Shown in pieces: positions 170 through 54,771 of a DNA stretch of 64,000 bases (position 1 is its first letter; every line of letters starts with the position of its first letter). The stretch is from contig CM034546.1 in NCBI GenBank assembly GCA_020055645.1, positions 80,538,001-80,602,000 on the forward strand, written 5' to 3'. Below the pieces are notes generated by a model. It was not told where the DNA came from and searched no databases. It worked only from the letters and a program-made list of their open reading frames with translations. Position numbers and translations under genes: made by a program. The DNA is from Tomocerus qinae. Taxonomy: Eukaryota; Arthropoda; Collembola; Entomobryomorpha; Tomoceridae.

Positions 170-3021
170 GTATCTCAGAAACCCTCCTCACTTCATCGAA
201 CAGAGAGACAAAATACGATTGAACAATTTGAGGTCAAAAATAGCATCCTCAGAAGATATTGTCGAGAAAAAAGAGTTGAAATTTAATCTTTCGTCCATTT
301 TATCGGATGTGGTTCAGAAACAATTAGCGTCCCTTCAGCAGCCAGAGAACTGTTCCGGCATAAACTTAATCTGCGGTCACAATAATGGTAACATCTGCAG
401 TAGTTAGAAAGGATCTTTAATTATTACAATATATTTTACATGGCTAGAAAGGAAAAATTAGGGATTCAAAATTCAATGTATATTATGTAATATTATATTG
501 GTTTAGATTTTAATGACCTCTTTTTAGGGACCTTTACCCTTAAATTATTGCATTTATTTGAAAAAATTTTTTTATTTGGATTGATTAAACTGATTTGAAA
601 TAATTAACACATTTGCCACAATTATTGTATCCTACACAAGTATTTGTGTTTTGTTTATTAGAATGTGGACTGGGGTGTCAAATTCATCATCGAGTGGCTT
701 GTCTCATCGTCTCTTATGCTTTGGGGGTTCCACTAATTCATGATGAAAATAAATGGCCCTACAATGATACTTGGAGTTCCGCATTTTTGCCTCTGGGAAG
801 TAAATGTCAAGTGGGACCGGAAACGTACAGATTGGAATGGATATCCCATTCATATCCGGTTTTGTGTCAGTTTAAACTTAAATGTCGCATTCAAAAAAAT
901 TTCCAAAAGTTTAATTTTGCTTCCGTTTTTTTGTCAAATGAGCTATAATTAGAAATAGAATTAACGAAATTTCTATAATCTGTCGATATAACCAATTTAA
1001 ATTGACAATTGCAGGAATGGTGCATGACCTCCCATATTACAAATTTCATACCTAATCGCTTTCTCTTTTATACTTGTAATTGTTTTATTATTATTATTGT
1101 AATTGTTCCAAACACAGATAAGGAAAATAGAATGGTCTACAACGTAATACACTATGGCTCTAAGAAAGAAAAATATGTCGATCAAATGGTATATCCACTT
1201 GAAAATGGGATTCCAATTTTTAGTAAGTTAGCAGATTTTGCGGAGATCGTCCACTCGTCTCCATTTATTTGGTGGGTGGGACAATTCGTGAAATTTGCAC
1301 TGCGACTCAATCCAAAAATGGAGCAAAGAATTAAGGAGGCTAAAAAAGAAATAGACTACAAACACCCTGTTGTAGGGTAAGACAATTAATACTTACAAAG
1401 TGTAGATATCAGGTGATAATTTTTGATTTGTACCATTTTCTAATATATAACCACAGACTGAGATAAAGCAATAAATTTACCTACCTATCTATCTATATAT
1501 CTATGTCTGGTAGGAGAGCCTAGAGAACCTGCATATATTACGTAACGCAAAATCCCCTCCCCATGTGTAACGCAAGTGCTGACTGTAACAGGCATCGCCT
1601 CCTCCCATCGACTGTACACGTAATTTCTGCACGTTCCTTCAAAGCAAAAAACCGAAATGCGCATGCCCACTCCCTCCTAACGAAATGGATTGTTTCTTAT
1701 TATTACAGCATCAGAATACTTTACATAAGATGATTAAATGTGGAAATGATTAGCTAAAGAAGACATTTCCTAATGATAATTAGCATTTCAAAACTTCTAA
1801 TCCAAATTAGTTCCGCTGTATCGGCAAATTTTTTTTTACCATTTTTCAGTAGAGATGGAGTTACTTTTTACTGCCCCATTGATTTGTTTGCGCCAGTTTA
1901 GACAACTTTTTTTGAATTATTGGGAGGGGGGCACTATTAATTCTATAAAATATTTATTCGTAAGTTGTACTCACTGGATTAGTACGTTTTTCCAAAATCC
2001 TGGAATCATATTTTTCTAACCGCTGTAGAAAATAAAGTAGATTTAAATTATTGCATTTACAAAGCTAGCATAATTACCTAAGGGAAATATCGATGATTTT
2101 TTCGGAATTGTTTTTACTAATGTGATGGGTGGACCGCCGCTGAATATCTTTTGAGTGCTATGTTCGCCCCTTAATTGGGTTCACTAGTTAATAATGACAA
2201 TAATAATAAGTGATTGGATTTGATTTGAATAATTTTAGTTCATTTCCACAGGAATAATACTCCAGGTCCCCATTTTTGTTTAAAACTTGTCTTTCATTTA
2301 TGATTTTTGGCTATATTTTGCAGATTACACGTGCGTCGGACGGATAAAATAGACAAGGGCAAAAAATTGTTGTTCGACATTAAAGATTATATGAAAAAAG
2401 CGACGCAGTATTATAATAAATCGGCAAATAAAAGGCGGCAATTGAAACGCGTATTTGTAGCTTCTGATGATGCGACTGTTTTCAAGACTACTACTAAAAC
2501 GTAAAACTATAACATGTTCGAATATTGGGTATCAATAGTGTACAGTAAAATACAACTATAATATAGTTTCTAACATGCGGAAAAATCTGTTTCTTGGAAT
2601 GCAGCTACAGAAGATGGAATGTCATTGGATTCAAATCACGAAAAACATACACATTTCAAGGATTCAGAGAACATTCTTTATTTGAAATCGTCACGGACTT
2701 GTTTCTTTTGCTAGAAAGCGATTTCGTTGTTTGTGGATTTTATTCAAATGTACGTTTCTGTTTTAATTACTCCTTGACATTGACTTTATTGTATGTCATC
2801 ACCACGCGTGGTTCAATTTTCAGATATGCAGCTTGCTTTACGAAATGCGAAGTTTCGGTCGTGCCAACGGAAAAGATGATTTGGTGTCTCTGCATGGCAA
2901 ATATGACTATATATTGAAGGGACATCGTATCAAACAGAAAATTGTAAAAGTTTATAATTCTCATTTAGGTGACGGTTACAAAAAGGAAACAAATGGCAGT
3001 GTTGATCCTCTGAGTTTTTGA
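170..3021 (+). pseudogene. FUT8-like alpha-1,6-fucosyltransferase, frame-broken 3' part, 5' end incomplete
   Basis: FUT8-type enzymes (GT23) add core alpha-1,6-fucose to N-glycans in the Golgi. Recognisable exons are about 170-387, 662-~850, ~1119-1376, 2324-2500, 2546-~2755 and 2824-3021. Motifs in FUT8 order are CGLGCQIHH, WWVGQFVKF, HPVVG followed across a splice by LHVRRTDK (the GDP-fucose-binding HxRRTDK signature), KRVFVASDD, KYNYNIVSN, VSWNAA and an ENSL block. The C-terminal SH3-like region looks short and diverged, ending DPLSF. The 5' end (membrane anchor) is not visible. Between about 2500 and 2680 the homologous segments lie in three different frames. The splice 2500/2546 is one base out of phase, the frame changes again after 2574, and two extra bases (2673-2674) interrupt ENSL. 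This suggests a decayed paralogue or a poorly resolved stretch. The family call is firm; the pseudogene status is inferred. Confidence 0.75.
1485..1690. repeat. Interspersed repeat, family shared with 36.96 and 44.14 kb
   Basis: This block lies in the long intron of the FUT8-like gene (1377-2323). It contains CCTGCATATATTACGT and GTGTAACGCAAGTGCTGACTG. The same words occur in inverse orientation at 36957-37090, and the GAGAGCCTAGAGAACCTGCAT edge recurs inverted at 44138. No flanking duplication was found. It is a dispersed non-coding element, probably a MITE fragment. Confidence 0.6.
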
Positions 3022-5493
3022 GTGTTTTTCATGTTAAAATCTTCTATTCTAAGATATCATGAGAATTTACTAAAGGTACAACTTTCTAAAATTAGGACGA
3101 TACCACGTGCACTTAAGTAATTCGACCAATCTGCTTGTATTTAGAAATGTTTTAATAATATAATAATTAGTAATTTCATTATTGAAGTCAGCATATAATA
3201 AGCAACAGTACAAGCAAATAATAATGCTCAATTAACACTTTATTGTATTAACTCGACATGTATGTAAACTCTAATAAATTATGGTTTACTTTTACTCACT
3301 ATATTGGTTTACTTACTACAATTTCGTCGCCAGAAATTTTATTTCCTTGTATTTTTTAGTCGGCATAATATAAACCAGAGGTTCTTTTGGATTTTTTAAC
3401 CCTTAATTCTGACCCAACCAGTCGGTGACGATGACCATGACCTTAACCATGACCCTAGCCAAGACCCTAGTCATGACCCTAGGTATATCTATATATATTT
3501 AGGTATAAATCGAGAGTCGAGTTGATAAAGAGCCGAGTCGTTGCTTTGGTCGAGGTGAGAACGTGTGTTGTGGAGCTCCGTTCAAAACGTCATAATGGAA
3601 TTTGGACTCAAAATTTGCCCCACCTTGCAGCTGAATTATTAAGTTTGAATATGAAATATAATTACTCTTAAGACTTATAAAGAAAATTACTATGATTAAC
3701 TAATGAAATTAGTTGAAATCAATTATTTTAAAACTATTCTTTCAACACTTAAATAGTATTTAGTATTGGAATAGAAAAGGAAAGCGACCCAGTACTCACT
3801 CCAGTACTCATCCCAGTACTCCCGATTGGCAAGCCAGTCTTTTGGGTAGCCGGAGATTTTAAGAGCAGTGGGCAGTGGCATTCAGATTAAAAAATCGAGA
3901 ATAATTCTTTAAGGCCCAAGCAGCTCAAATTTTTAGAGCCATGATCTATGTACTCATTCATCCTCCTTGCATTTTCTCTGCAGCACAGCACAACCCCTAA
4001 TCTGGAAATAATTACCAATACACAATATAAATCACTCAAACAGTCGTGTCTACGCCATACAATATTGTTACAAAAAAGATTATTCTACCTGAAGAGTTAA
4101 CAGTGAATGAAGAGATATAATCGTTTAATAACTTTCTTCGAATGAAGGGGTTGTATTGTGTCCTATGCATCAGCAGATCCCATGACACTGTAATTAAATC
4201 TATCGACAAACCCAAACTTTCTTTATGGTTTGGCTTTGTCTACCATTCCCCTTAGAAGCATCTAAATGTTAAAAGAAATGCAATTTACTAAATGTTTCCA
4301 CACAAAACACCGTTGTACTATACCAAGCGGCACTCAAAAGTTATGGTCAAGATTTTGAGACATTTTACAAGTCAAGTGTTTTCCCAGGGTCAAAAGCTGT
4401 TGACATTGTTGGAAATTCACTTCCATTCATTAGTACCAATTCACTCAGCTCTGTACGTGGAATTGAGCCTAAGAATTTTCCATTACTAATTTCAGTAATT
4501 GTTAGTGACAAGAAGACTGACAAAGGGCGGTTTATGCATTCTCTCTCTATCATCACCGTCAAGGTTTTGCTTATTTGGCTTAGAGTGGGAACAAAATACA
4601 GACTTTCATTTTAGCACAGTCCGTCCGTCGTTGGGTTCGTCTATTAGCAAATTACATCTCTAACAACTAATGCGACTAATGGGTTGGTTAAATATTGCAA
4701 AAAAATCATTATGAATTGATGACGAACACAGTTGAAAATTCAAATGTTAACTTATAAGGAATTTTATGGTAACAAATTAATTTTTTTCTGCACATTTTCC
4801 ACTCACACTAATTTTAAGATTTTCCTATCCTTCCAGCTTGTGGAATAAACATTTATCTGTTTATTTATAAGTAATTATTTGCTAACTTTAAAAATCATAC
4901 GATTGTTAGCTTTAAGTGTATTAGTTTGGATAAATGTATTTCATTTTATATGCATATAATATTTGCAAACCAACGAATCAAAAGATAAGGAGTTTGATTG
5001 GTCAATTTGTAGGGTGTGTGTCAGTACCGTATTTAGAAGTCTTTTCGGAGGGGACATTGACGCAATACACCGCCAAAAATTTTGGCTTATTTTGTCTAAA
5101 ATAAGTGAAAAATAGCATTGAAATTTTTTGGTATTTTGAGAAACAATTTCCCTTTTCTTTGATTTCGGGGGGGGGAGGGGCATTTGTCCCCAATGCTCCC
5201 CCCTCAATACAGCCTTGGTGTGTGTGAACGTGAGATGATTGACTTAATATTTTCGGGTCGTTTAGAAGTAGACACTATTTTGTTTATTCAACATATTGTT
5301 ATAGCCTGTTCAATCATTCTCGCCGTCTAATATAATATTAAATTTTTATTTAATCAAACTAATCAATAAAAAGCAATAATCTACGTTAGTGTTGACGTAG
5401 AGAGCATTATTCAGATTCGGAGGGGAATTTTGGAAATGGAACACTTTATATTTACACGGAAAATTAGAGAATAATTTTATAGTCATAAAGTAA
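3022..5493. other. Intergenic, no gene seen
   Basis: AT-rich sequence without a supported coding exon. It holds a short degenerate minisatellite at 3418-3482 (variants of CATGACCCTAG) and three close copies of CCAGTACTC at 3788-3822. A G-rich stretch at 5165-5180 borders a short repeat-like segment (5020-5220). Confidence 0.6.
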
Positions 5494-7638
5494 ATGGCTG
5501 CAACAAAGATAACAGAAAGTGTAATTCCTAATTCTGTTGCTGAAGACATTTTTAAAATTTCTATGATTGAAATGAATAACAATATTAACCACAGTGAAGG
5601 GCTTCAAAAAGATCTAAAACTTGTATTATCTTTTGGGAAAATTTTGGGTCTGTTTCCATCTTTATTGGCAACTAATCGTTCACAGTTAAGAATATATGTT
5701 CACTAATACTCCTATCACTAATATCTACATATTTTAATAAAGTTCATTATCATAATAAATAATGTTCTAAATACATAATATTTCATATGTTTTTACTGAA
5801 GTATTCCTGTTTCATTTTCTTAATTCTGCATGATAGATACTATCGAATTTTAGCTTGGACATTTTCGATCGCTGCAGTTTGTTTCCCTAGTCTAGTCCAT
5901 TTAATTTTAATATTGTACCGACTTACTGTCAGACATCTCATAGCCGACATGGATACATCAACAGCTGCCAGTGTTTTTGAAGGCTGTCTATTTTTTTCAA
6001 CTGTTTTTATCTTGTAAGTTTTAACTTAAAATTCATTCACTTTTCAGTCAATATTCTTTCCATAAAAATAAGATTTAAAAAAGTAACTTTAGCTTTGGTT
6101 CATATAGCTTTGGGGTAAATAAACCACAGATGAATTTTTGTTGAATTTTCCCTAAAAGTGGATATAATAATACATTTTAATATCTTAAGCAACTGCATTA
6201 GGTTAATAAATCTTTTAAAATAAAATTGTTTTTAAAAAATTTGATTATTTCTACTTATTCTGGAATTTTTTATTTCTGGAATTATTGAAAATCTACTTCA
6301 GCAGTTCGTACATGCTGTGTCGTAGAAAATGTTTCCAATCTTTGCTGGAAAAATGGGAGACTTACAACAGCCAGTTAAAGTTCAAGGAAAAAGACAAAAC
6401 ATTACTTTTCCATGCAACTTCAATTGCTCTATTCATAACGCTTTTGGGAATCTGCGAGAATTTACTTTTTGACGCAGCCACCTTTTCTAAAAACGCCAAC
6501 AGTAAATATCTTATTTCAGTGATTTTGTTCCTAAGTTATTTGATATTTAGGACGATTTGAAAATATTTTTTCAGGGCAGAGCCATTCCAATGCAAGTGGT
6601 CTGGAACTTATTTATGTGAGGTTATATGACTACTTTGCCACGGTAATACCCTACCATTGGTTGCTGGTATCAATGGTTTACTTTACTCAAAAAATGTTTA
6701 CGTATTGTAAAAATTACATGGACATACTTATTATTGTTTTTTGTCGAGCACTATATTTCAAGTTCAAAGCATTGATACATCAAATTAATGTCCAGCGACT
6801 TTTCGATGCAGAAAATCAAAAATTTCTTAAACAGTCACCCAAGTCTTCAGGTGGTCAAGGTGCTTAAGTTCTAATGACAATGACTGACGTATGTTAATTA
6901 AAAGGAAGGAAATAAATAATTATCGTATTTGTATTTATGATCAGGAATATTGTCTTGGGACGATGTTCGTTCTGACTTTCTCATCCTTAGCGATTTGGTC
7001 GATCTTGTGAATAACTTCTTTCATCCACTCGTCTTTTTGTCTTATATCAACTCTGTCTTCAACATTTGTTTACAAGTATTCAATTACTATATTCCTTCAC
7101 TTGTTTACTTTCAAGGAATTAAAATTTCATTAATCTCCAAAGATGTTTTATGCTATGAATCAATGAATGTGATTTGTTTCTTTGTTTATTTAGCTCCATT
7201 ACTGGATTATTCCTCATGGGACTCATAATCAAATTCAAAAAATTTACATTTCAGTGTCGTTTTTTCAATTTGTTTTATTAGCTCTTCTGATAACCTACTT
7301 TGCTTCTAACGTCAATATATGGGCTCAAAAAATTGTTCGTAGTTTGCAGCATTGTCCTAATTGTGATTACACAGTTTCGGTGAGTTCATGACTTTTGTCT
7401 TAAAAGTTGTGTAAAATGTTTGGAATTTCTTTGCTATTGATATTATTTTGATGAATGGGATTTACAGGTGGCGAGATTGGAAAGGTTTATAATCGTTCAT
7501 CCGATTCAAATTCATGGAATGGGTCTATTCATTATTACCAGAAAGTTTCTACTCTCCATATTTAGTTTTATGTTTACTTTTGAAATAATTATGTTGCAGT
7601 CTATGTCTCCTGCTATTAGCACTTCTGATTGTCCCTAA
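5494..7638 (+). CDS. Gustatory receptor family protein, copy 1
   Basis: Predicted seven-transmembrane ligand-gated channel subunit of the insect chemoreceptor superfamily, expected in the sensory neuron membrane. Coding exons are 5494-5690, 5837-6013, 6302-6501, 6575-6850, 6945-7075, 7194-7379 and 7468-7638, giving 445 residues, typical for a Gr. The family is shown by the C-terminal block GMGLFIITRKFLLSIFSF followed by MFTFEIIMLQ, matching the insect TYxxxLLQ region. The conserved IPYHWL and VNNFFHPLVFLSY segments are shared with the neighbour at 11.1-13.0 kb. Exon phases equal those of that neighbour throughout, so the two arose by tandem duplication. One oddity: the donor expected after 5690 reads AA instead of GT, although joining there keeps the frame. 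The end of exon 4 is ambiguous (6850 or 6859). Confidence 0.85.
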
Positions 7639-18474: not shown

Positions 18475-21400
18475 ATGAGCAAGGGAATTAAATGCAATTA
18501 TTTCCAGAAAATGATGAGGCCGAACATAAACTACTATGCCTTATTGGGTGTGCCTTCAACTGCAACTCAAGAAGAAATTACTCGAGCGTACCGTAAAAAG
18601 ATCTTGGAAGTTCATCTGGATAAAATAGGCGAAGGTGAAGATACAGATTTGTGCTACAAGACAATAGAAGCATATCGAGTGATATCCAATCGGAAATTAC
18701 GTGCAAAATATGACATCCAACGAGATTCGACTTTCAAAGCGGAGGAGGTTTTTGTTCCAGCCGGATATATTTGTTATGATGTTGGGGAAAACCAAATGTC
18801 TAAACGGGTACTTCAGGACATCGCTCAATGGAAAAAGGATTTTGAGGAGATGCAAATGAACAATAATGGCTACAGTGACAATTATTTCGAATGTTTTTCA
18901 AATCTAATGGCAGGGGTGATGGATTCAAATGAATCTGGTGCTGAAGTTATTGACAAAAAGACATACTTCTGTGGTCTTTGTGATAAAAAGTTCCTGACGG
19001 AGACACATCACTGGGAAGAAATGCTTTATCCTTACGTAAAACTATTTCCGAGTGATAAATCCGGAGTGGGAGCACTGTACAATTACTTTGAAAATTTATT
19101 AGGGGCTAAATCATTCAACTGGAAACCTCGACGTCTGCCATCTCGTCTTCTGGGCATTTGGGGTTCGGAAGAATGGTTAAAGTTTACACACTGTGACAAG
19201 ATAATTTCTGATATTCTAAGTGAAATCCCATCTGATGACGATATTGGAATTGAAGAACAAATTGAGTATATTCAAGAAACATTTCTTATTAGTGAAAGTG
19301 AAATGAACGAAGCAGTGTATCCTCAATCGGCCTGTAAAACTTTCTGTTGGATGCTGGAACACCAAAATGATCAAGAGGCAGTTGTGAACAAATTAAGCGA
19401 TCATTTAATGTCGGATGAAGTGACGGAAATCATGTACATAGCTTCAGTCATGAAAAATCTTCTTGAATGTGGAGGAGATGAATGGAGGGAATTAACTACG
19501 AGCGCTTTGGAGGCAGAGCAACCGGAATTGGCAATGCTCTGGACAAAAATTGGGATTGAATTTGGAGATACCGACGAAACACAATGGTACAAATTGGGAA
19601 TGAAGCTCCGTGATGTGGATCCTGTTCTTGCTCATTTCTGCTTTCTCTCCGGGGGCTTTGAATGTGATGAAGACTGGGAAAACATAGGCAATGAATTTAT
19701 TCGGAAGAAAAATCATTTCGCGGCACTTGAATACCATTTGAAACTAGGAAATATTGATTTCATCCTGGAAAAGTCTAGGAAACTTGCAAAATCCGATGCT
19801 GAAACAGCGTCCATTTATAGAAATGTTTACCACTCTTTGAAAATCAAGACTTTGCTGGCTAATCTCCAGAAAAGGAAATCAGATGACGATTCTCATCGGT
19901 TTGATAGCGACTTAGAGAAATTAATTCAGTTTATTAAAGATTTAGCTGGGAAAAATCCTCTTGAAGGATTTGGGATCATTGCCAGCACGTGGTCAAAGAC
20001 TTTTGAAGACCCAATCTGTCACGAAATGCACCGAACAGCATTGGACATCTTGAAGCGGAAAGAAGTTACTGTAAAATCTTACAACTTAATATTAGGAGGA
20101 ATGCATATAATTCCTCCAGATGATGTCGACCTTGAAGAATTAGCGATAGAATGCGAAGATTTAGTTATCAACCAAATAGAAAAGAGTATGAAGCGCAGTG
20201 ATTTTGATTCTCTTACGGAAATCCTTCTTTATTTGTCACGTAGGTCAGTTTCTGCGGCTGTTAAAGTGCTGAGTGACATGGAGGAGGAATCCCAGCAAAT
20301 TTTAATCAGTACAAGTCCGCATTTAAAAGCCATGAAATTCCTAATTCAAGGGACAGTTAGCAAAATACAACGAAATTGGATGGGAGCCATGGGGGAGTAC
20401 CAAAACGCACTTTTGTGCAGTCCTGAATGTATGCATCGAGTGCTTCCTTGCATTTCTAAACTGAGTCAGGACATTGAATTCCACGAGGCAGTCGTGAGTG
20501 AAGTTGAAAGCGAATGTAAGGAGCTCAAAGACTATTTCGACTCGGAGGAATACCCGGAAGTTGAAAATTATGCTTCTAATAGAAATTCGCTTGTTCTTTC
20601 TGATGTCGCACCGAAAATTGACTTCGGATACAAGAATTTAATGTCTAAGCTGAAACCTGATCCGGACAAATTCGTGAATCAACCGCCCCCTCCCGAAACA
20701 GATACCGAGAGACCTGTTGAAACAAATACGCCGATGGTAACTCTAGACAAGAACGAGGAAGCTATTCAATCTGGACAAAATCTAGGAGGACCTATGGCCC
20801 AATTAAATGCAGCGCTGTCCTACATTGACCTGTTGAAAGCTTTACCTGTTCCATTTCAACCCGGACCGATTGTGATGGCAGCTTCACATTTCCTTCGTGC
20901 AATGGACGAAACAGACGACACTGGAAGTTTGTTCGCATACAGAAATGTTATATTGCAAATGGCGGAAACTCTGATTCGGATCGACGGGAAAACTCAAGCT
21001 ACGATTCAACATTGTCTTACGCATAAACACATGCTTTCTATTCTGCTAAGTGCCCATGAGAAATTATCAAAGGCCCTTGGAGGTGAAAATTCTGATGATT
21101 TGGAAGATTCTGATGATGATTTGGAAGATTCTGATGATGATTCGGAAGAAGAGTGTCGAAAATCAACAAAAGGAAGAGGGATAGATTTAATCAGCACATC
21201 CGAAGCGAATCTTATTTCTAAATTCCTAAAAAATGTGGTTAGTTTTCCAAAAATAGAGCCGTTGGCCAATATCCCAACGTTGAACTGTTCTGACTTAGTT
21301 TATGTGGAAACCCTTGGGAATAGCTTCTTGAGTCAATTCTGTTCTGGAAAAGTAGGAGAGAAATATCAGTCGCCAAAAATCCCTAAGCATTTGCATGCTT

Positions 21401-22665
21401 ACACGCATTTCGTAGAAGTTTGGAAAGGTCGCAGTTCCTTAACAGATTTCGATACAGCACGAATAAAGGCAATGGAGGAATTATTGGCTCTTCGGGGATG
21501 GACTCACGAAGATGTAGAAGAATTAATGAGATTCCCACTTCTGAATTTGACTAGCGAAGGATTTACTCTGGATTTTAGGACTGAATTAGTTTTTTCAAAC
21601 CCTTCTAAATCGTATAGGAATATCCACGGTTTCAAAATTGATTACGAACGGGGAAAGATAGAATTTCTTCTCACGAAAGATTCGCATACGGCATTTTCTC
21701 CTGGCAATCTTTTCGACACTGAGGATATTCGAGAGATATTTTCTAACGATATCGATATAAAGAAAGGGTCTTTAAGTTTAATTAGCCCTGACGTCACTTT
21801 CAAGAGCCATCCTTTCAAAGAAATTAAATTCGACCCAAGAGACAGTCAGTCGTGGGCGAGGAATTATTTGCAAACTCTAGCCCGGGCTGCTATGTTGCTT
21901 TGTTATTTTGCCAGTGGGTGGGAGATTTGTGCCAAAACACCTTTCTACATGAAGAGAACTGACGAAGGATTGTTAAATCGACTAGATGAACATTTACAAC
22001 ATCTTCTCAGACCCGTAGGAGTGAGGAAACAAGAGAATGGAAAAAGAAACAAACCTTTCAATCCCGAATCTGACATTCCCAATAGATTTTGGCTCAATAT
22101 CTCTGAAGTGTTTGAAGAGGAAGAAGAAGATGCGACGACCTTCACATACAAAGTTGGCGAGGTCAACGCACAGATTAAGGTCAACACTTTAGTCATGACA
22201 CTTAATGGCACGAAGACCAATTTGTCTGCCGAGGCTGCATTCGCAAGGGATTTCACACGACACTACGATGAAATTGGACTCTCCTTCCCCGAATTGCTGA
22301 GACTCAAGGAATTCGTCAAGATTTCTTTGATCTGCACCAAGTTGAAAGGAATTCTTCGAGAGAAAATTGCCCTGGTGAAGCAGAACGGACGGAGCAAGGA
22401 AGACATTGCCAAAATCAACAATATTTGCGAAGCCATAAGAGAACTTGGCATTTCTGGTGACACTCAAGATGAACTTCATACGTTCAAAAAGAATAGAAAT
22501 AAAGACTCGTCTGATTGTCTTTGGCTTCCGGCAACCTTCTGCAATAATTACGACATTGATCTCTACGAAGTCAGCGCTGGGGTCAATATGGTACCTGAAG
22601 TGACTTATGGTCCCGTTTGTCCTCCCAGTGATAGTCGCTATGTATCTGCTACGCAATTACTGTGA
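18475..22665 (+). CDS. Intronless 1396-residue protein with degenerate J domain
   Basis: One uninterrupted frame in a region where every other host gene is split. Residues about 19-83 form a J domain (NYYALLGVPSTATQEEITRA, YRKKILEVHLDK, EAYRVISNRKLRAKYD). The HPD tripeptide needed to stimulate Hsp70 ATPase reads HLD (residues 47-49, bases 18613-18621), so classical co-chaperone activity is doubtful. A CGLCDKKF...HHW cluster (about residues 167-181) looks like a worn zinc-finger motif. A serine/aspartate/glutamate-rich tract lies around residues 875-895, built from tandem copies of GATTCTGATGATGATTTGGAA. The C-terminal third has ARNYLQTLARAAMLLCYFAS and a charged ARDFTRHYDEIGLSFPELLR segment. 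There is no signal peptide and no clear membrane span. The start is the first Met; a second Met at residue 13 or 14 is possible. I do not recognise the protein beyond the J domain. Function unknown. Confidence 0.85.
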   Translation: MSKGIKCNYFQKMMRPNINYYALLGVPSTATQEEITRAYRKKILEVHLDKIGEGEDTDLCYKTIEAYRVISNRKLRAKYDIQRDSTFKAEEVFVPAGYICYDVGENQMSKRVLQDIAQWKKDFEEMQMNNNGYSDNYFECFSNLMAGVMDSNESGAEVIDKKTYFCGLCDKKFLTETHHWEEMLYPYVKLFPSDKSGVGALYNYFENLLGAKSFNWKPRRLPSRLLGIWGSEEWLKFTHCDKIISDILSEIPSDDDIGIEEQIEYIQETFLISESEMNEAVYPQSACKTFCWMLEHQNDQEAVVNKLSDHLMSDEVTEIMYIASVMKNLLECGGDEWRELTTSALEAEQPELAMLWTKIGIEFGDTDETQWYKLGMKLRDVDPVLAHFCFLSGGFECDEDWENIGNEFIRKKNHFAALEYHLKLGNIDFILEKSRKLAKSDAETASIYRNVYHSLKIKTLLANLQKRKSDDDSHRFDSDLEKLIQFIKDLAGKNPLEGFGIIASTWSKTFEDPICHEMHRTALDILKRKEVTVKSYNLILGGMHIIPPDDVDLEELAIECEDLVINQIEKSMKRSDFDSLTEILLYLSRRSVSAAVKVLSDMEEESQQILISTSPHLKAMKFLIQGTVSKIQRNWMGAMGEYQNALLCSPECMHRVLPCISKLSQDIEFHEAVVSEVESECKELKDYFDSEEYPEVENYASNRNSLVLSDVAPKIDFGYKNLMSKLKPDPDKFVNQPPPPETDTERPVETNTPMVTLDKNEEAIQSGQNLGGPMAQLNAALSYIDLLKALPVPFQPGPIVMAASHFLRAMDETDDTGSLFAYRNVILQMAETLIRIDGKTQATIQHCLTHKHMLSILLSAHEKLSKALGGENSDDLEDSDDDLEDSDDDSEEECRKSTKGRGIDLISTSEANLISKFLKNVVSFPKIEPLANIPTLNCSDLVYVETLGNSFLSQFCSGKVGEKYQSPKIPKHLHAYTHFVEVWKGRSSLTDFDTARIKAMEELLALRGWTHEDVEELMRFPLLNLTSEGFTLDFRTELVFSNPSKSYRNIHGFKIDYERGKIEFLLTKDSHTAFSPGNLFDTEDIREIFSNDIDIKKGSLSLISPDVTFKSHPFKEIKFDPRDSQSWARNYLQTLARAAMLLCYFASGWEICAKTPFYMKRTDEGLLNRLDEHLQHLLRPVGVRKQENGKRNKPFNPESDIPNRFWLNISEVFEEEEEDATTFTYKVGEVNAQIKVNTLVMTLNGTKTNLSAEAAFARDFTRHYDEIGLSFPELLRLKEFVKISLICTKLKGILREKIALVKQNGRSKEDIAKINNICEAIRELGISGDTQDELHTFKKNRNKDSSDCLWLPATFCNNYDIDLYEVSAGVNMVPEVTYGPVCPPSDSRYVSATQLL

Positions 22666-23997
22666 CCACAACTAGAAAATTACACTTTTGTGGACACCTA
22701 TTTACTTACATATACAGTAAAGAAAAATTGGTTATAAAGAATTGAATAGCGGGCCAAATTTTCGACTGTGAACTTATTTTCAGCCAACAAATGCAAATAA
22801 TCTTAAAATTGAAGACACAGTCAGTGAAATCAGTATCGTAAATGTTATAATAGGTATTTTAAATTTTTTCAGTAAAATAAATTTCATCTCAATCTGATCT
22901 AATCTAATGACTCTTCAATCAACGTTGTCCTTGTCAACTCATTCTTTAGAGTATTACAAACATAAAAATACATAATCACTTCCCTGAAGGACATATCTTA
23001 TGGAAGTAAGGTGATACCTTAGTCATAGTAATATGTATAAGTAACCGAATTAGTTACCGTTATGTTCAAACGATTATATATTTTGGCAAGCTGTAGTTGA
23101 TTTTACAACATTGAACACACACGATTTAATATGTTAGTTTTGGCATTAAGTAAAACGAAAATGTCAACATTTGTATCATTGCCATAAATTAGCAAGTTGC
23201 AACTCTAAAAATATGACTAATGAAGCAAAACAAAAACAGCAACAAACATTTGACCTTGTTTATTAGATTACAACACGCACGTATTATTAGCCCTTAAATA
23301 TGTATAATGCACACATAACAAGATGAAGTAGATTACAATACAGAACATGACTTGCTTTTCGTTTATATAATACACCACTCTTAAAATACAAAGTTATCTT
23401 GCATACCTATATACCTTACATACACTAATCGTGTCAAATAATTTTTTAACTAACTTACACTATAAAACACCAAGCTAAAATTATACATTAAAAATACATC
23501 AACATAATTTTATTTGGTTTAATTTACAATGTCAACATTACCAGCTTCAACTAATGCAAATAATAAATGTTATTACTGTGAAATGCAACCCCATCACTTC
23601 AACATGTCCATAATCTCACACGTTAAATTACCATAAATATCAAACTACAATTGGTGTACAAAATGTTCAAAGGCTCTGTACACACAAGCACATTTATTAG
23701 CAATTGTTAAACATGAAGTAATATTATTATTTTACATTGGAATTAATTGTATAGTGTTCCATGACAGTAATATTGGCTAATAATAATAAGACTATGGAAG
23801 TAGGAGTACGTCTACGACTATCCCAAGCTTAGTGCACCTTCTCCCTTTTATGTTCCCCTCTTTTTAAAATAAAGCTACTTCCTCTCTCAACAAGGGCAGA
23901 AGATGGGGAATTTGGATCCAACCCAAAGTCACTGCATAAAAGAAGAAGAGTTTGGATATCCGTAGTCTGCCACAATATATCCATCTGATTTAATAGA
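22666..23997. other. Intergenic, no gene seen
   Basis: AT-rich sequence between convergent genes. It presumably contains both 3' UTRs. AATAAA-like signals are frequent but cannot be assigned. Confidence 0.6.
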
Positions 23998-25532
23998 TCA
24001 ATCTCCTCGGTCAGAAGTTTCCATCGGCTGCTCTACTTCCAGAGCAACATTATCAGTTCTGCACCGTTTTATGACATGTGCAGCTGCCTCTACTGTATAA
24101 TTCATCAGGATCAGCAATTCCAATTGGTAAACTGCGTCGAAATGGACATCAGGGCCCCCGACCAATTTAATAACTTTGATATTTGTGGGCAGCATTATTT
24201 TTCCTATCAAGTTCGCATCGACCCTCGAGCCCACCAATCTATGCAATTCAAAATCTCTGAGTTTTGGGCATGCAGTGAAATTCAAAATGGGACCCAATTT
24301 TAATGAACTGCGCAAATCCAATATATGAATAGACGTCAAATTTGGGAACGGGAAAATATGTGGAGCCATTCGATGAGTAAATTCAGGTATCGAAATATTC
24401 AATTTTTCCAAAGTGGCCGGAAGGCCTTCAGTGAGACGACGACCTCTGGGTACACTCCTATCGACCACTCCTGTGCGGGATGCTAAAGGCATTCCACTAC
24501 TTGCTCTACAAGCAATTAAGTTATGGCGATAACGTTTTGTAAGCCAGCGACTATTTGCCCACCCTTGGACCATTACTCCCCCTTGTAAAACTAAATATTC
24601 CAATTTAGCATCATATTGGCTAATGTCTAATTTATAAATATCCCCACCCAGCTTCAGCTTTATCATCTTGGAGAAGTCAATGAAATCGTTCAATAAAATC
24701 CGTTCCTGTCTTCCCGGCATGGCGGGAAGAGGTAACTCTGCTCCATTGATAACGAATGAGTTACGGCCACTGAGCTGCAAATATTTCGGGGCTATTTTCC
24801 CATCTACAACTATTTTGCAGCTTTCCAAATACACATGGTCTACTGTGGCAAGTTTCGATAATGTAACGACAACCTGAACATAATCTTGCACACTGATATT
24901 TAATTTTTTTATACTTGGACTAAGATAAGTGTCAAGATCTACAGTGATCTCCTTATCAATGTCACAGTATCCAAATGGATTTCTTGAAGAGCAGGAGGTC
25001 TCCTGGTCAGCAAGAAATAATTCACTATAAAATCGCTAACCCATCCTTTCAACTCCAATGCAGATGTTTTTAGTGACTCCTCAATAAGAAATGCATCTGA
25101 AAATTTCTCGATTTCACGGAGAGCTCCAGCTTCATAATTCGGTTCTTCATCCTCCTTCTTCTGCTTTCGGACGGGAAAACTGCAAAATTCATTCACGTGC
25201 GGCCGGAAACTGTCAATGCTTTTGACTTTAAAACATATCTTCGATTTCTTCCAAAATGTACGGTCGCAAGCTGAATTCCATTTTGTGCACACGAGTCGAA
25301 ATTTCAATAAGCTTCTAAAGCTCAAATGGCCAACTATCTTGCCCAATACCTGATAAAAACAGAAAATTTATACCATATTTTACTATTTTTTCATAAATTC
25401 ATATTGAAATGGATTAGGCACTGAATATAATTATTTTTTGCACTAATATTGATGACTCACCAAATCATTCATTAGGGCGTGTCTCGGTCCACAAAATTCT
25501 TCCTCAGGATGGTCAGGATTTCTTTCTGCCAT
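23998..25532 (-). CDS. F-box protein, leucine-rich C-terminus
   Basis: Likely substrate adaptor of an SCF (Skp1-Cullin-F-box) ubiquitin ligase. Exons on the complement are 25532-25461, 25349-24943 and 24892-23998, giving 457 residues. The F-box spans the first splice: ALMNDL joined to VLGKIVGHLSFRSLLKFRLV, then CTKWNSACDRTFWKKS. The remainder is rich in irregular LRR-like strands (TLSKLATVDHVYLESCKIVV, LEYLVLQGG, LTSIHILDLRSSLKLGPILN, IKVIKLVGGPDV). The second intron is only 50 nt (24893-24942). Without it the frames of exons 2 and 3 do not match, and with it they join perfectly as RRSLVQDYV. F-box families of this sort are often large and fast-evolving in arthropods. The target cannot be inferred. 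Confidence 0.82.
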
Positions 25533-30845: not shown

Positions 30846-33800
30846 TTAATCCGTTCCTGCTGAGACTTTGACAGCAGTTGCAACGGCTGATGTAGCCGAC
30901 GGAGCAGCTGCTGTTCCTCTTTTCTGAGATACATTTATTTTATCCCCCAAACTTAAAGCCATTCCCTGACTTTTGGCTCTTATTCTAATGTGTCCAGTTA
31001 CAGGTGCATTAGGATTGTCGATTGGCTTCTCAATACTCAAATTGGCCAAGGCATCTTCTCCGAAGATAGATTTTGCATACAGTGTTGCCGCCATAAAACC
31101 GCAATTTCCAATCAAAGCCTGAAATAGATATTTAGAAAATAAGTTAACTTATCTCAGATTGCAGAATGCTGAAAATATGATTATAAATACCTTTTCGGGT
31201 GTAAGACATTGCATGTTTGTGGATTTAATCAGATGTTGAAGATATTGATGTAGGTCAGTAATTGCAGTGTTAACTCCAACTTTATTCTCCCATTCAAACT
31301 CGGCCCACATTGCTCGGAATTCTGCATCTGTACAGGTTGCTGGTAAAATGTAGTCCATGATGTCAATATGGATATCACTCATTACCACGACATTTCGATC
31401 TGAGGCCGCACCGCTAACGTCATATACTAAAACAAAATGGAATAATGAATACTTTGATTCAAACTTATAAAAAAGAGTCAGCCAAAAGACTACCTATGTT
31501 TCCAAAGATTACTCCATTCTCTGTTGATGCAACTTTAATGCTAGCACGAATATTAGTAAAATCTTGTGGGCCTAGGACAATAGGTTGTGGGCGTTCTACC
31601 AATTTTAAATCCCCAAGAGTTGCCAACTCTAAAGTACAGTTCTGCAGTGTATCATCTAAAAGGTAATCAAACATACAATTAATTAGTAAATCAATATAAT
31701 ATTTTTATTTGCCGATTTACTAATTCATTGGACACTTACTAGTTTGGTTAACTAAAAGTACATCCAAAACAATGTCAAATTGGTTGACATTTATATAAGC
31801 TTCGGCATAAACTGGGTCAGAAAAGCCGGTCAGCTGGGTAACTTTACTTAATTTTGATGATGAAAACTGCAATGTAATCAAGAATTACACCATTTCATTA
31901 ATATTGCCATTCACATGATTTTTTCAAATTGGTATTTCGGTACTTTACATCAGAGTCGTTTTTCTTTGTGTTGAACCCAACGGCTTGACTCAAACTGACT
32001 TCAAAAGCGTCATCGCCATTAATCATGTCGTTTCTTGACATCAACTGAAGAAACGGTATTGGATCATCAGCTTGAACTTTAATATCTTTCTTTTTCTTTG
32101 CCTTGGAATGTTGAGCTTCAAATTCAGCCTGTTCTTTTAACATATCTGCTAAAGCCATACGACAGTCTCTGGTAAATACTGAGGACAACTTCTCATTTTG
32201 GTCTGCTAGGACCCTGAGACACAGTGTAATTCTGTCGACATCATCGGCAGTTATAGCTTTTGTTGGCAAACCTGTATATCAAAAGCATCGACATTAAGTC
32301 AAACGCGATGAATTAATAACAAATCTTACTAAAATATTTGAAAAATATTACCAGATTTTCCTAAACGAAGAATAGATGTCATAATTAGCATAGCTTCAGC
32401 AACAACTTTGTGTCTTTCTGCAGATTGTGGTCCACCGTGCTGACACAATCGTCGGACCATCTTTGTAAGAGAAGCAGAAAGTCCAGCTCCGATGAAGAAA
32501 TCGCCTTCCAAAAGTAGTTTTCTCAAAGATGGGGCATCATCGGTCTGTTTTTTATAAAATGCTCCTTTTAAAACAAACATTATTCAATGAAGAAAGCATT
32601 TATAGTGCAATGTCAATGCCTGACCTTGGATTTTGTTTGCGCCATGGAAAATGCTGACTGAGTTGCATAAGTGCCATCCGACGTTACTAATCGAGATGGT
32701 TGTGACTTTTCAGTTCCCGTTTTAGAATCTTTTTCCTTATCCTCACTTTCATTTCCTGCTGCTTTCTTTAATTCTGATTCGACCAACGGTAACTAATTTA
32801 TTCAAAGACATTCAAAGTTGTTTAGAAAAATATTAAAAATAATAGAAAATAATTTTAATTTTAGCGACTACTGACCTCGCCCAAGCATGTCTTTATTTGT
32901 GATATAACTGCTTCGATGTCTTCCTTTTTTGTAGCAAACTCTCCTAGAATCCAAATTGTCGAGCGAAGGATTTTTGAAGACTTTATTTGTGGGAATATTT
33001 CTAGCAATTTTTCAGTAATGATCCCTGTTAGTCCTGGGAACTTTTGAACTGCCTCGCGCATAAATAAAAGGACGTCAGATGCAGCTAACTCGTTTGAATC
33101 AGAAAGGAATTCAGCCAAAACAGGAACAATGCTAGGAGCCACGTCAGGGAACTAAAAATTAATATTTAAAAGAATACATTTAAAATCGTTACGTTAACCA
33201 ATCCTTCGAAATTCAACCGCACACTCTTACAATTAGTGTAAATTCAACTACCTTTACACAGCACTGATGTAATGTGCGAACAAGAAGTTGACGATATTTT
33301 CCTGTGTCGTCATGTTCAACCGAATTGTGAGTTCTGCCCACCTCTTTCCGAAGAAAGAGCACCGCCTCACCAACATGACGAGATGTCAGCAACTCAAGAC
33401 CTAAATTCAGCGTTTTTCGTCTCACTTCCAAATCAGGAGCAGCAAGAATTCTCAGAATGTCCATCACCAAGTCCTCCATGACCTTCTCGCTTGCGGACAA
33501 ATCCTTTAGCAACGCAAGCCGTTCCAGGACTATTAACTTGACATTATTATCACTTTCTTTAATAATTAATTCGATGTAACATGTTGCAGCAGCCTGTTAA
33601 AAACAAAATGTTTTACAATTAAAACTTGCATTTTCGTTATACGAACTATTAAATTGGATTCTACACCCCACATTAATTTTTATGTATTTATGGTATGTCC
33701 TAGTCATAAAAATTTTTGAGTTATTTACCTTGACAGCTGATGGAGCAGTGGACAACGTAACTAATGTTCCAGCCGCTTCGTAACGAACAGCTGAACTGTT

Positions 33801-39108: not shown

Positions 39109-42100
39109 TTATTTCCTCGCATTTGAAAGTTCAGTCATGACCCTCAACACAAGTTCTTCTTTAAAAGGCTTTCCTATCAACTGTACACCGATGGGAGATC
39201 CTATCGACGCCAATGTAGTCTAGGAAAAAAAGATTCTTTATCTTCAAACAAAATTGCGTGAATTACATTAGTAGGGTATAAGGCTAATAAAAACGCTTAC
39301 GTCTCTGACCAGCCTGAGAAGAGCATCCCCTTCGGTGTTGTAATTCGCAATATTTTTTCCCGATTCCGTTCCATACCGAACAATTCCAGCGGGGAAATCG
39401 ACAAAATTCCATAGTTGTGTGTAATGCTTTGAAGCTCCTAAATTGACATTAGAAAATATTAATACTATTTATTTGAATATCTAACGAAGTAACGAACTAC
39501 CATTCTATCAAAAATTCATATGATTCAAATTTTCATTCAAGAAGTTACGAAAGTTAATAAATAAATAAATTAAAAATTAATTAAGCAAACATCAATTTTT
39601 AATACTTCCCAAAATTTACACAAAAATAGAATTATCGTATCATCGTTTCAGTTTGTTGGTTTTTAAAATAACTGCGCTAACCGCTGAATAAAATCAAAGT
39701 CAGGTGATATTTGGTGATAAACTAGCATGTGTGAGGGAGAATAGATTTTTAAATTCCTGTTAGCATATTTCTTTCCACAATTAATTATTGATTGCCAATC
39801 GGCATTTCAAACTATAGTTTGTCCATTAAAAATGTGCACTGTTTTCGTAAATTTATGTGTACTGATTTCTGAACTGTAATTTGATAGTAATTGAATTTGC
39901 TATAGAAACTGTAGAATAACTGCCACTAACAGGTAGCTTAGCAATCTAAGTGACATTTTTTTTAGCAATTTAGCCTCTCAGAATAACAAAGTGCACATTT
40001 TTTATGGACAAACATTATATACTTACCAAAAAGCATTCCGGTATCATTAAGACGACAAGCAGGGAAACCAAAAGCCGGCGCAAGTATTAAGTCAAGATTT
40101 GATTTTTCCATTCTGGTTAGTAATTTCGAAATTAATTCGCTTCTAAGATAAATCAGATCCCAGACATCCATGTCCTTGCTTTGAAATATTCCTCCTTCTG
40201 CTATTAAAGTGGTTCTGGCTGAATATGAGGGACTTCCTGGTTTTGAAATTGGATTTCTGAACAACTCCTGACGTCTTTTACAGTCTGACTGTCCACAAAC
40301 GGCTCTCAGACCCTCCAGCCCTCTCGCTTCAGGTTCATTTTTAAATTGTTGATTGAGGTAAGAATTCTTTCCAAAATCAACGTTTGTAACATCATTCATG
40401 AGTCTCACGATATCCCAATCATTTTCTATTTCAAATGGTACGAAGGTGTGTCCTAGTTTCTCCAGAGCTCGTTTTGCTTTCAATACAGTTTCTATCGTGT
40501 CTCCAATAGCAGGAATAAACGATAAAGATGTGTAAAAGCCAAGTCGCAAGGGATTTGTGGATTCAAACTCCTGATGTAAAACATTGAGAGTTGAAAATAA
40601 TTTACTATTTAACGATATTTTTAGATGGTAGCACTAAATAATTATTGAAAGTGTGTTAAAGTAAGTAAAGCAAAGTAAGTTAAACTTACTTTGTCATTCC
40701 ATGGAAGCGGCACAGCACGTGGGTCGTAATGGTTTTGTAAGCCTTTTAGTGTAAGTGATCTGAACACATACGTCACAGTGTCAACATCTTTAGCCATTAT
40801 TCCAGGAACTCCCCGAACTATTACCCAATACAGAAAACGAATAAATCCCAGCACTCTGTCAAAATGAAGTGCATATTATTGTTACCCAATAATCGATAAT
40901 TAAACTTACAGCCTATAGCTTTAGGTATGCACTGAAGAATTCCTTTGTCACTTAGACGGTTTTGTGTGGGCTTGAGTGTAGATAATCCACTGAAATGGGA
41001 AGGGATCCTCACAGATCCGGCGATATCTGTTCCAGTGCCAAAAGGAACCCCACCTGCAGCGACAAGGCACGCTGTGCCACTACTGGAACCGCCAGGTGTT
41101 AACTTAACATTCAGGGGGTTCACTGATTCCCCGTAAATAGGATTATCGCTTGAATAACTAAGTAAAGTTTGTGGGACATTTGTCTTGCAAAACGGATTGG
41201 CTCCTAAATCAATTAAGACCTGAACTAAAACGCTGTTTCTCTTTGCCGGCTTATTTAGATTTTTTCCAAGTCCCAGAGTTGTGTCCATTCCCTGAACATC
41301 GAAATCATCTTTGATACAAACCGGCAATCCATGGAGCGGTCCTTTAATCCGCACACTTCGATCCAATTCTTGAGCTCTTTCCTATCATTGTTGTTATTTT
41401 TGGTCAGTTACAACCCAGACATCTTTCGTAAAAATAACTCATGTAGTCAGTTACTGGTCAGGAGAAAATATCTTTTCATATTTAAAATTTAGAAGACCAG
41501 AGTAATGTGATTTAGTTTATCCATCTGAATCACAGCATTATTAAATAGAAATGGAAGTCATGAACCATAGAGTCGAGTGAAATAAGTTTGATGGCTATGC
41601 GGATATCAATATTACATAGAATCAATGTTTGGTTTGCATTGCATTATTCAAAGAATATCATCTTCTCTGTAAGTGAATATTGTTTCTGTCTGTGCGACTA
41701 TCTATCTGTCCTTATCCCTGTGCACGATAACTTTCGAACGGGTTGATCTATTATATTCAAATTTTCAGGGTACAATTTTAAGGTAAAAGAAAGGAAGAGT
41801 TTGTAAATGGGGAAGATCAGCCGCATCCCCTAACTGGGGGAGGATTCAAAAATAATTAAAAAGTGACATAACTTGGGTTCTGTTCATCGTACATGTAGCT
41901 AGATTGAAAGTTGGCAGATCCACGAACACTACTAAATAGGTAGCAGTTATCCCCTGACAGGGGAGTGAGCGGAAACCTTAAAAATATGTCTTCTGCCATT
42001 ATATTTCCGTTTTGCAATGGTTTATTGGGGTTGCATTTGCGTTCATTGTATAAAATTATTTGTTGATATACATGATATTGTCTAAATAAATGAAATACCG

Positions 42101-53137: not shown

Positions 53138-54771
53138 TTATGAGTCCTGGTCTTGGTGAATATGGTAGTTGTCTCCCCGTCCTTGTGTACCAGTAGTTGC
53201 AAGAATCGTTGATGCTGATTTTCTGAAAATTAAAGAATAATGAATCTTAGGAAAATCGAAAATTAGAAAATCATAATTTCCTAATTAGTTTTAATGAAAG
53301 TGTTTAAGTTGGATACAATAATTAAATTAAGTTTACCTTTTTCTTTGATAGACCCTGTCGGATGTATTTTTTATCACAATTGCAAGACCTTTTTTTACAG
53401 CAACCCAATTTGCAGTTGCTGACGTAAGAGCACTGTGTTTTAAAGCACCTAATATTAAAAAAATAACAATTAATATATTACATCTCCAAATTCTCTACGA
53501 CATACCAAAGATATTCAAAAAAGTTCAAAAAGTTATGCTTACTGAATATGACTTGATTAACAGATTTGAGGGAGGAGAATTCCAATTTCCTTTTCATTCC
53601 TAAAAGACTGTATTGACATAGTACTTCATCTGCTATTATTTGAGCCATCATGAATGCTAACGATTTTTCAATGTTAGGTGTGACGAAATCCATCAGAAAG
53701 AGCTCCTGTTAATATAAAACAAAAGATTGTTGTTGAATATTATAGGCTTTAGACTAATAATCAAAATTTTTAAATTATATAGTAATAGGCAATTTTAACA
53801 CTTGGTATTTAATATATTAGGTATTCAATAGTGCTAGACTTACCAGCTTTTGAAAATCTTCTACAGAATTAGACAAAAGCGATTCCATGTCATTTAGCGA
53901 CTCAATGGATGTTACAGGAATAGGATAAGAGAATGGCGTTTTCTTCTTTGACATTTCCAAGCTTTGAATGTCAAGGTGTTCAACTATTTTTGTCAATAGT
54001 TCCGTTTGAGTCTTCTGTGACCTTCCGATTTGCTTAAGCTTACGGACCACATATTGTTTGAATTCTGAAAATAATTATAAAATAATTATTGAATAGTCAT
54101 TTTAAACAGACACCGATAAAATAATATGAGAAAGTGGCAGAAAAAGCTATTATTATGTCTATATAGAAAACAAGTAAACAAAGTCGAACCAAAATCAGAC
54201 TGTGTCGTATTTTCTTCTTGGGATTGATCCAAAACAGATAGTTCCTCTCTCTCCTTTTCAAGCACATCGTCAATTTCTTCATTAGTAAAAATAATTTCTC
54301 CATGAGATATCTCAGAGGGTTTATAAATGTAAGTGATGGGTACTGGAGGAAGTACGTTGGTGCGAGTGGTACTAGTTTGATTTTTTCCTCTTGGAGGGGT
54401 TGCTGTTTCACCTAAGTCAGATGTGTATTGCGCCTTTGGGAGATTTTTAGAAGCCTCCTCGTATGTTTCTGAAATACATATTAAAAGTATTACTATTTAT
54501 TGGAAAACCAAGAACCGATAACTAGTCATCCTTTTAATGGCAATGTTAGACGCAATTTCTCACCGTATTCCCAAAGTACTCTTGCATTGTATAAACTCCA
54601 TGTTTCAGGATCTGGAACGTGCAGTTGTTTCACAGCTTTTTTAGTCTTCTTAGGGGGCCAGTAGCATTTATCATTGGTCATCCAAAACAAAGGCGCAACA
54701 GCGATAGTTTCAATGAGTTCACCTTTTTTATCTGTTTCCGTGTATTCCACAATTCCGTAAACTGGACTCAT
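53138..54771 (-). CDS. DUF4806 domain protein, companion of a transposase-like gene
   Basis: Six exons on the complement: 54771-54564, 54468-54190, 54064-53844, 53705-53543, 53448-53337 and 53222-53138, giving 355 residues. The frame is kept throughout; one donor (GTTCGA after 54190) is weak. The N-terminal part has FWMTNDKCYWPP and PDPETWSLYNARVLWEYG. The middle is acidic and Ser/Thr/Pro-rich (EEIDDVLEKEREELSVLDQS). The C-terminal DUF4806-like region has YPIPVTSIESLNDMESLL, IIADEVLCQYSLLGMKRKLE and FSSLKSVNQVIFSALKHSAL. DUF4806 has no known biochemical role and is common beside mobile-element proteins in animal genomes. The start ATG overlaps the stop of the upstream transposase-like gene, which suggests one shared transcript or element. 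Confidence 0.75.

Follow-up and report, generated by a model that had tools for sequence, protein, structure and literature searches.

What does a J protein do once the histidine-proline-aspartate (HPD) motif of its J domain has been altered? The question is raised by a long gene of the collembolan Tomocerus qinae, which lies within the window analyzed here, a stretch of 64,000 nucleotides taken whole from contig CM034546.1 of assembly GCA_020055645.1 (positions 80,538,001 to 80,602,000, forward strand). The product of this gene (the window gene) has a recognizable J domain in which HPD reads HLD. We propose that it is a type IV (HPD-less) J protein that serves as a non-catalytic scaffold uncoupled from Hsp70, a reading to which we give about an even chance. 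Judged by sequence comparison, the window gene is not an orphan: it belongs to a small family in an animal genome, of which no other intact member was found.

An intact frame with an HLD J domain

The coding frame runs uninterrupted from ATG to TGA for 1396 codons (18475..22665, + strand) and corresponds to a protein of approximately 159 kDa; measured from stop to stop, it comprises 1414 codons. Stop-free runs arising by chance in 20 first-order Markov simulations of the window (64 kb each) had a mean longest length of 138 codons and a maximum of 177, so the frame lies far above chance. When scored with the codon usage of the relatives described below, frame 1 outscored the other two in each of 13 blocks of 100 codons, with a value of approximately zero in one of them; codons 1301-1396 were left out of this scoring. 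As the initial annotation had claimed, the coding frame shows no intron and is open throughout; an intron in the 5' untranslated region is possible.

A full-length J domain was found at residues 19-80 with Pfam PF00226 (18529..18714, + strand; 44.5 bits against a cut-off of 27.8, E=1.7e-11, model positions 1-63 of 63), confirming the domain named in the initial annotation. Its observation of HLD at residues 47-49 also holds, as the codons are CAT CTG GAT (18613..18621, + strand). The equivalent codons in two relatives from the same genome are CAC CCT GAC (locus L009) and CAC CCG GAC (L010), and the CTG at codon 48 is one transition away from the CCG of L010. The fold is matched over its full length with a score near those of the HPD relatives (45.0 and 50.8 bits), and therefore the motif alone appears to be gone, not the domain. 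Each of the 13 NCBIfam matches of the window protein was to a J-domain model and scored under that model's own cut-off.

PF00226 had 56 matches in the same genome, which comprises 334 Mb in 115 contigs. Among the best 30 of these 56, 28 have HPD (the J exons of both relatives included), one has HPG and one has HLD; the HPG match, at locus L054, has its motif beside the end of the frame, and HLD was found in the window copy alone. The intact HPD that marks a canonical class C J protein is missing from the window protein, which combines two traits of a type IV J protein, a recognizable J domain and a non-conservative replacement of HPD. It shares these with DnaJB13 (HPL) and Pam16, members of a type that presumably does not stimulate Hsp70 (PMC13254874). 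However, the motifs of the type IV examples are HPL, DKE and DKS, the section of that paper that names them mentions no nuclease-bearing relatives for them, and the C-terminal two thirds of the window protein are uncharacterized. Elsewhere on the contig, four J-domain matches form two pairs about 100 kb apart (G000:C1:23505170-23605708), with frames of up to 346 codons, and are possibly a separate local J-protein cluster.

The initial annotation had recognized nothing in the C-terminal two thirds of the protein, and model libraries and solved structures agree with it. Outside the J domain, a Pfam scan reaching to E=1 gave no match in the window protein; for residues 200-1396, no significant model was found in Pfam, NCBIfam, PHROGs or PADLOC (best E 0.026, to an unnamed PHROG), and comparison with solved structures gave nothing beyond a weak resemblance to tetratricopeptide repeats (TPR). 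Sequence comparison and a low-confidence model point to a helical middle region (residues 337-699; 19483..20571, + strand) with 25-27% identity to L009. A single-sequence AlphaFold model of residues 300-712 was all helical, with a predicted local distance difference test score (pLDDT) of 48, and a structure search with it gave weak TPR-like matches only (best E 1e-3, template modeling score 0.26). The window protein matches no TPR model, designed TPR proteins match it weakly, and the TPR_2 match in one relative (P0003) reached 17.4 bits against a cut-off of 27; the region is probably TPR-like, and we do not call it TPR. It is followed by a conserved C-terminal region of unassigned fold (residues 777-1286; 20803..22332, + strand) with 26-32% identity to the relatives, for which Pfam, PHROGs, PADLOC and solved structures held no significant match. 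The single-sequence AlphaFold model of residues 905-1396 (pLDDT 35) was not usable.

Decayed relatives with nuclease exons

Fifteen matches were obtained when the window protein was searched against its own genome, seven of them confined to the J-domain stretch. The other eight fall at three places on contig C1, namely the window (one), 16.33 Mb (three) and 19.14 Mb (four). The relatives at the latter two places lie on the same contig as the window gene at a distance of 61-64 Mb, and pieces of the window protein are 25-35% identical to them, the homology extending along most of its length. Searches with the relatives' own pieces found no additional locus in the genome, and these counts are lower bounds.

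At 16.33 Mb (L009 and L017), a J exon, a long exon and two 3' exons follow one another in order. At 19.14 Mb, a J exon (L010) lies about 10 kb from the 3' part (L011) and each of the two contains the beginning of the long exon, which indicates that this locus was rearranged or partly duplicated; the J exon of L010 need not share a gene with the 3' exons of L011. The relatives' J exons have HPD and end in FALLR. Next comes a GT-AG intron, which measures 145 bases in L010 and 389 bases in L009, and then a long exon beginning with S(A/T)LG, all introns in this work being inferred from sequence. Soon after the point of the J-exon intron, the window frame has about 90 extra residues. The long exon of L011 extends to a GT donor at 5409 and is followed by a hydrophobic exon (5562-5787, 75 residues) and a last exon (5862-6184, 107 residues to the stop). 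Where the relatives show the inferred splice to the hydrophobic exon and then the last exon, the window protein has a C-terminal tail of its own, about 43 residues long (22534..22662, + strand) and not found in the relatives.

The last exon matches Tox-URI2 (PF15653), which in polymorphic toxins of bacteria is a nuclease domain with Y, KxG and [EQ] as listed features (PMC3482391), at 27.6 bits in L011 and 28.8 bits in L017 against a cut-off of 20. By our own assignment, these features may correspond to Y18, K31-V-G33 and E76 or E81 of P0007. Like the toxins, the relatives of the window gene end in a domain in which Y, KxG and E are present; unlike them, the window copy has no Tox-URI2 domain by Pfam. 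A nuclease exon hidden downstream of the window gene was considered and rejected, as tblastn of the two 3' exons against all of the window found none at E up to 1. The GIY-YIG model scored under its cut-off on the nuclease exon (13.7 vs. 22.6), and PF15653 searched against the whole genome gave one of the two Tox-URI2 exons, while the protein search gave both. Scans of plasmid, viral-contig and genome-contig collections with the nuclease exon found no relative and no bacterial source, and the exon had no match among solved structures; it is therefore the Pfam model that carries the Tox-URI2 call. A 2012 survey has a table that places Tox-URI2 in bacteria only (PMC3482391). The Tox-URI2 exon is open at both L011 (5862-6184) and L017 (4891-5211), though the genes have decayed.

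The decay takes several forms. L009 carries an in-frame TAG and is broken by a reverse-transcriptase element (approximately 4410-6430; RVT_1, E=8.5e-32), and between L009 8449 and L017 4320 lies an insertion of about 4.3 kb, hAT-like by eye, whose target duplication is 8 bases long and whose ends are CAGGGCCGG; both mobile-element insertions fall within C1:16.335-16.344 Mb. The hydrophobic exon at this locus is frameshifted, and L010 and L011 have stops and deletions. The window copy is the sole intact family member found in the genome. Between the relatives, the ratio of nonsynonymous to synonymous divergence (dN/dS) over six pieces was 0.149 (J exon), 0.382, 0.292, 0.274, 0.215 and 0.194 (nuclease exon), at synonymous divergence (dS) of 0.25-0.52; decayed stretches contributed some of the pieces, and this would raise the ratio. 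Values of 0.15-0.38 show that purifying selection acted on the relatives, nuclease exon included, during much of the time since they separated, and they probably decayed recently.

Possible roles of the window protein

The layout of the relatives is an HPD J domain followed by TPR-like helices, the conserved C-terminal region, the short hydrophobic exon and a nuclease exon of URI/GIY-YIG type (Tox-URI2). The window copy keeps the J fold, has leucine in place of the HPD proline and lacks the nuclease exons. In the mechanism that we propose, its helical and C-terminal regions would bind partners as a large cytosolic adaptor, and its J domain would dock or dimerize without driving ATP hydrolysis by Hsp70. 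Loss of Hsp70 stimulation, a scaffold role and a cytosolic location are thus what we infer for the window protein. Several points weigh against this proposal. With pLDDT of 48 and 35, the predicted structures of the middle and C-terminal parts are too poor to back a scaffold directly, and dS between the window copy and the relatives (2.3 and infinite) is saturated and so gives no measure of selection on the window copy itself. Moreover, changing HPD to AAA does not fully abolish activation in some systems (PMC13012618), so HLD may leave some activity.

That partial activity, together with the intact J fold and basic helix II (RAYRKK), would also suit a working class C J protein that tolerates HLD and goes on recruiting Hsp70 through helices II and III, its stimulation being reduced or altered. 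We consider this unlikely, since HPE is seemingly the one tolerated variant (PMC13254874) and the HPD proline interrupts helix II and orients the histidine and aspartate toward Hsp70, its replacement in P34A lengthening the helix in simulations (PMC13012618). It is also improbable, to a like degree, that the window gene is losing its function as its relatives did and that HLD is an accident of decay, either a recent CCG to CTG transition or a private allele. Both other loci are broken and L010 has CCG at this codon, from which one transition yields CTG; however, the window gene has 1396 open codons with a coding-frame bias in every block scored, and an unselected frame would be unlikely to stay open for as long as the saturated synonymous divergence from the relatives implies. 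A further explanation, which we regard as very improbable, is that the window protein is a nuclease-free regulator that pairs with nuclease-bearing relatives through their common regions and restrains them, as Pam16 does with Pam18 (PMC13254874). The same core, the lack of a nuclease, the inactive-looking J motif and that precedent would speak for such a role, but the searches of this genome turned up no nuclease-bearing relative that is intact, and perhaps nothing is left here to regulate.

For the Hsp70-uncoupled scaffold that we favor, a parallel in layout is P58(IPK)/DNAJC3, a class C protein with TPR and a weak fold match, which also joins a J domain and TPR-like helices in one chain. Its J domain is C-terminal and has HPD, and no sequence relationship to the window protein was found beyond the repeats. 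Among the papers listed in literature searches, none dealt with the window protein, with J domains that carry HLD or with a fusion of a J domain and Tox-URI2. A broader scenario, which we rate a long shot, is that an animal lineage built J-domain/TPR-like proteins ending in a bacterial-type URI nuclease and that what survives in the window gene is a form free of the nuclease and uncoupled from Hsp70, which once restrained or replaced its nuclease-bearing siblings; a chaperone scaffold, joined by a toxin domain acquired from elsewhere, would then have given rise to an animal effector/inhibitor family.

Whether deviations from HPD are accidental or selected has been termed enigmatic (PMC13254874). 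The window gene retains the J fold with the motif alone changed; in its relatives, purifying selection acted on the J exon with HPD (dN/dS 0.15), and a toxin-type nuclease exon comes after it. Should HLD prove to be fixed among orthologues, the family would allow a direct test of accident against selection. It would also add an animal example of Tox-URI2, within a gene whose introns are inferred, that is absent from the 2012 survey table (PMC3482391).

Origin and surroundings of the gene

The initial annotation was right about a real HLD J domain and an unmatched C-terminal part, but its proposal that the gene was retrocopied or transferred is not supported as stated: the 3' exons are missing, no A-run of 8 or more follows the gene, and the prokaryotic, phage, plasmid and viral collections gave no relatives beyond J domains. 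The J domain may, as that annotation suggested, now serve for binding or targeting. The weight that it placed on intronlessness must also be lowered. The stretch of L011 that is the counterpart of the window frame (2645-5408) has one stop and likewise no intron across 2.7 kb, so the comparable difference between the window gene and its relatives is a single inferred intron. HPD relatives with inferred introns do exist as candidates for a parent, but they are distant paralogues located elsewhere and not orthologues at this place.

An origin from the reverse-transcribed, spliced mRNA of a family member, which concerns how the gene arose and not what it does, is possible but in our view not likely. 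The window gene lacks the inferred post-J-exon intron of both relatives, lies tens of megabases from them (the 61-64 Mb given above), and is flanked by imperfect direct repeats at 18395-18411/22863-22879 (17 nt) and 18141-18156/23309-23324 (16 nt), each 88% identical and drawn from the 20 of 28 repeat families listed. However, a full spliced mRNA would carry the hydrophobic and nuclease exons, both of which are absent from the window; no A-run of 8 or more occurs in 22661-24000; and a gain of the intron in the relatives fits equally well. The repeats are AT-rich and imperfect, of a kind often due to chance, and with no poly-A tract beside them we take them as such. An old event would have erased both poly-A and target-site traces.

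Viral, phage, plasmid and prokaryotic contig collections held no relative of the window protein beyond J domains, a few short peptide seeds being used for the contig scans; eukaryote genomes as such are not part of these collections, and absence from other animals or bacteria is not implied. The J domain alone was matched in 8 of 8 phage records and in the 20 plasmid records listed out of 35. A bacterial or symbiont origin was considered and is unsupported, given the 140-Mb contig, the animal-type neighbors and the inferred introns of the relatives.

These neighbors include Adaptin_N, Amidase and glycosyltransferase-92 genes, which fit an animal nuclear genome. The initial annotation held that all of them bear introns. 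A single frame covers model positions 264-371 of 524 for Adaptin_N (33213-33596) and 31-181 of 445 for Amidase (40821-41381); such partial coverage fits intron-bearing genes in these two cases. A 713-codon frame at 54768-56909 (- strand) matched nothing in Pfam at E 0.01 and has the look of a mobile-element gene by eye. At 23998-25367 (- strand) lie two overlapping frames, one of which (23998-25035) had no Pfam match at E 0.01, with an F-box/leucine-rich-repeat look by eye.

Some smaller features of the window gene complete the picture. Residues 166-179 (18970..19011, + strand) form a CxxC...H element whose C166, C169 and H179 are invariant alignment columns, kept in both relatives; it is a possible zinc-binding turn, and zf-met matches in the relatives fall under the cut-off. 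An acidic short repeat of DSDDDLED type lies within the frame at 21085..21138 (+ strand; repeat families D1 and D3). An AATAAA hexamer resembling a poly(A) signal, by consensus match only, is found 211 bases past the stop (22876..22881, + strand).

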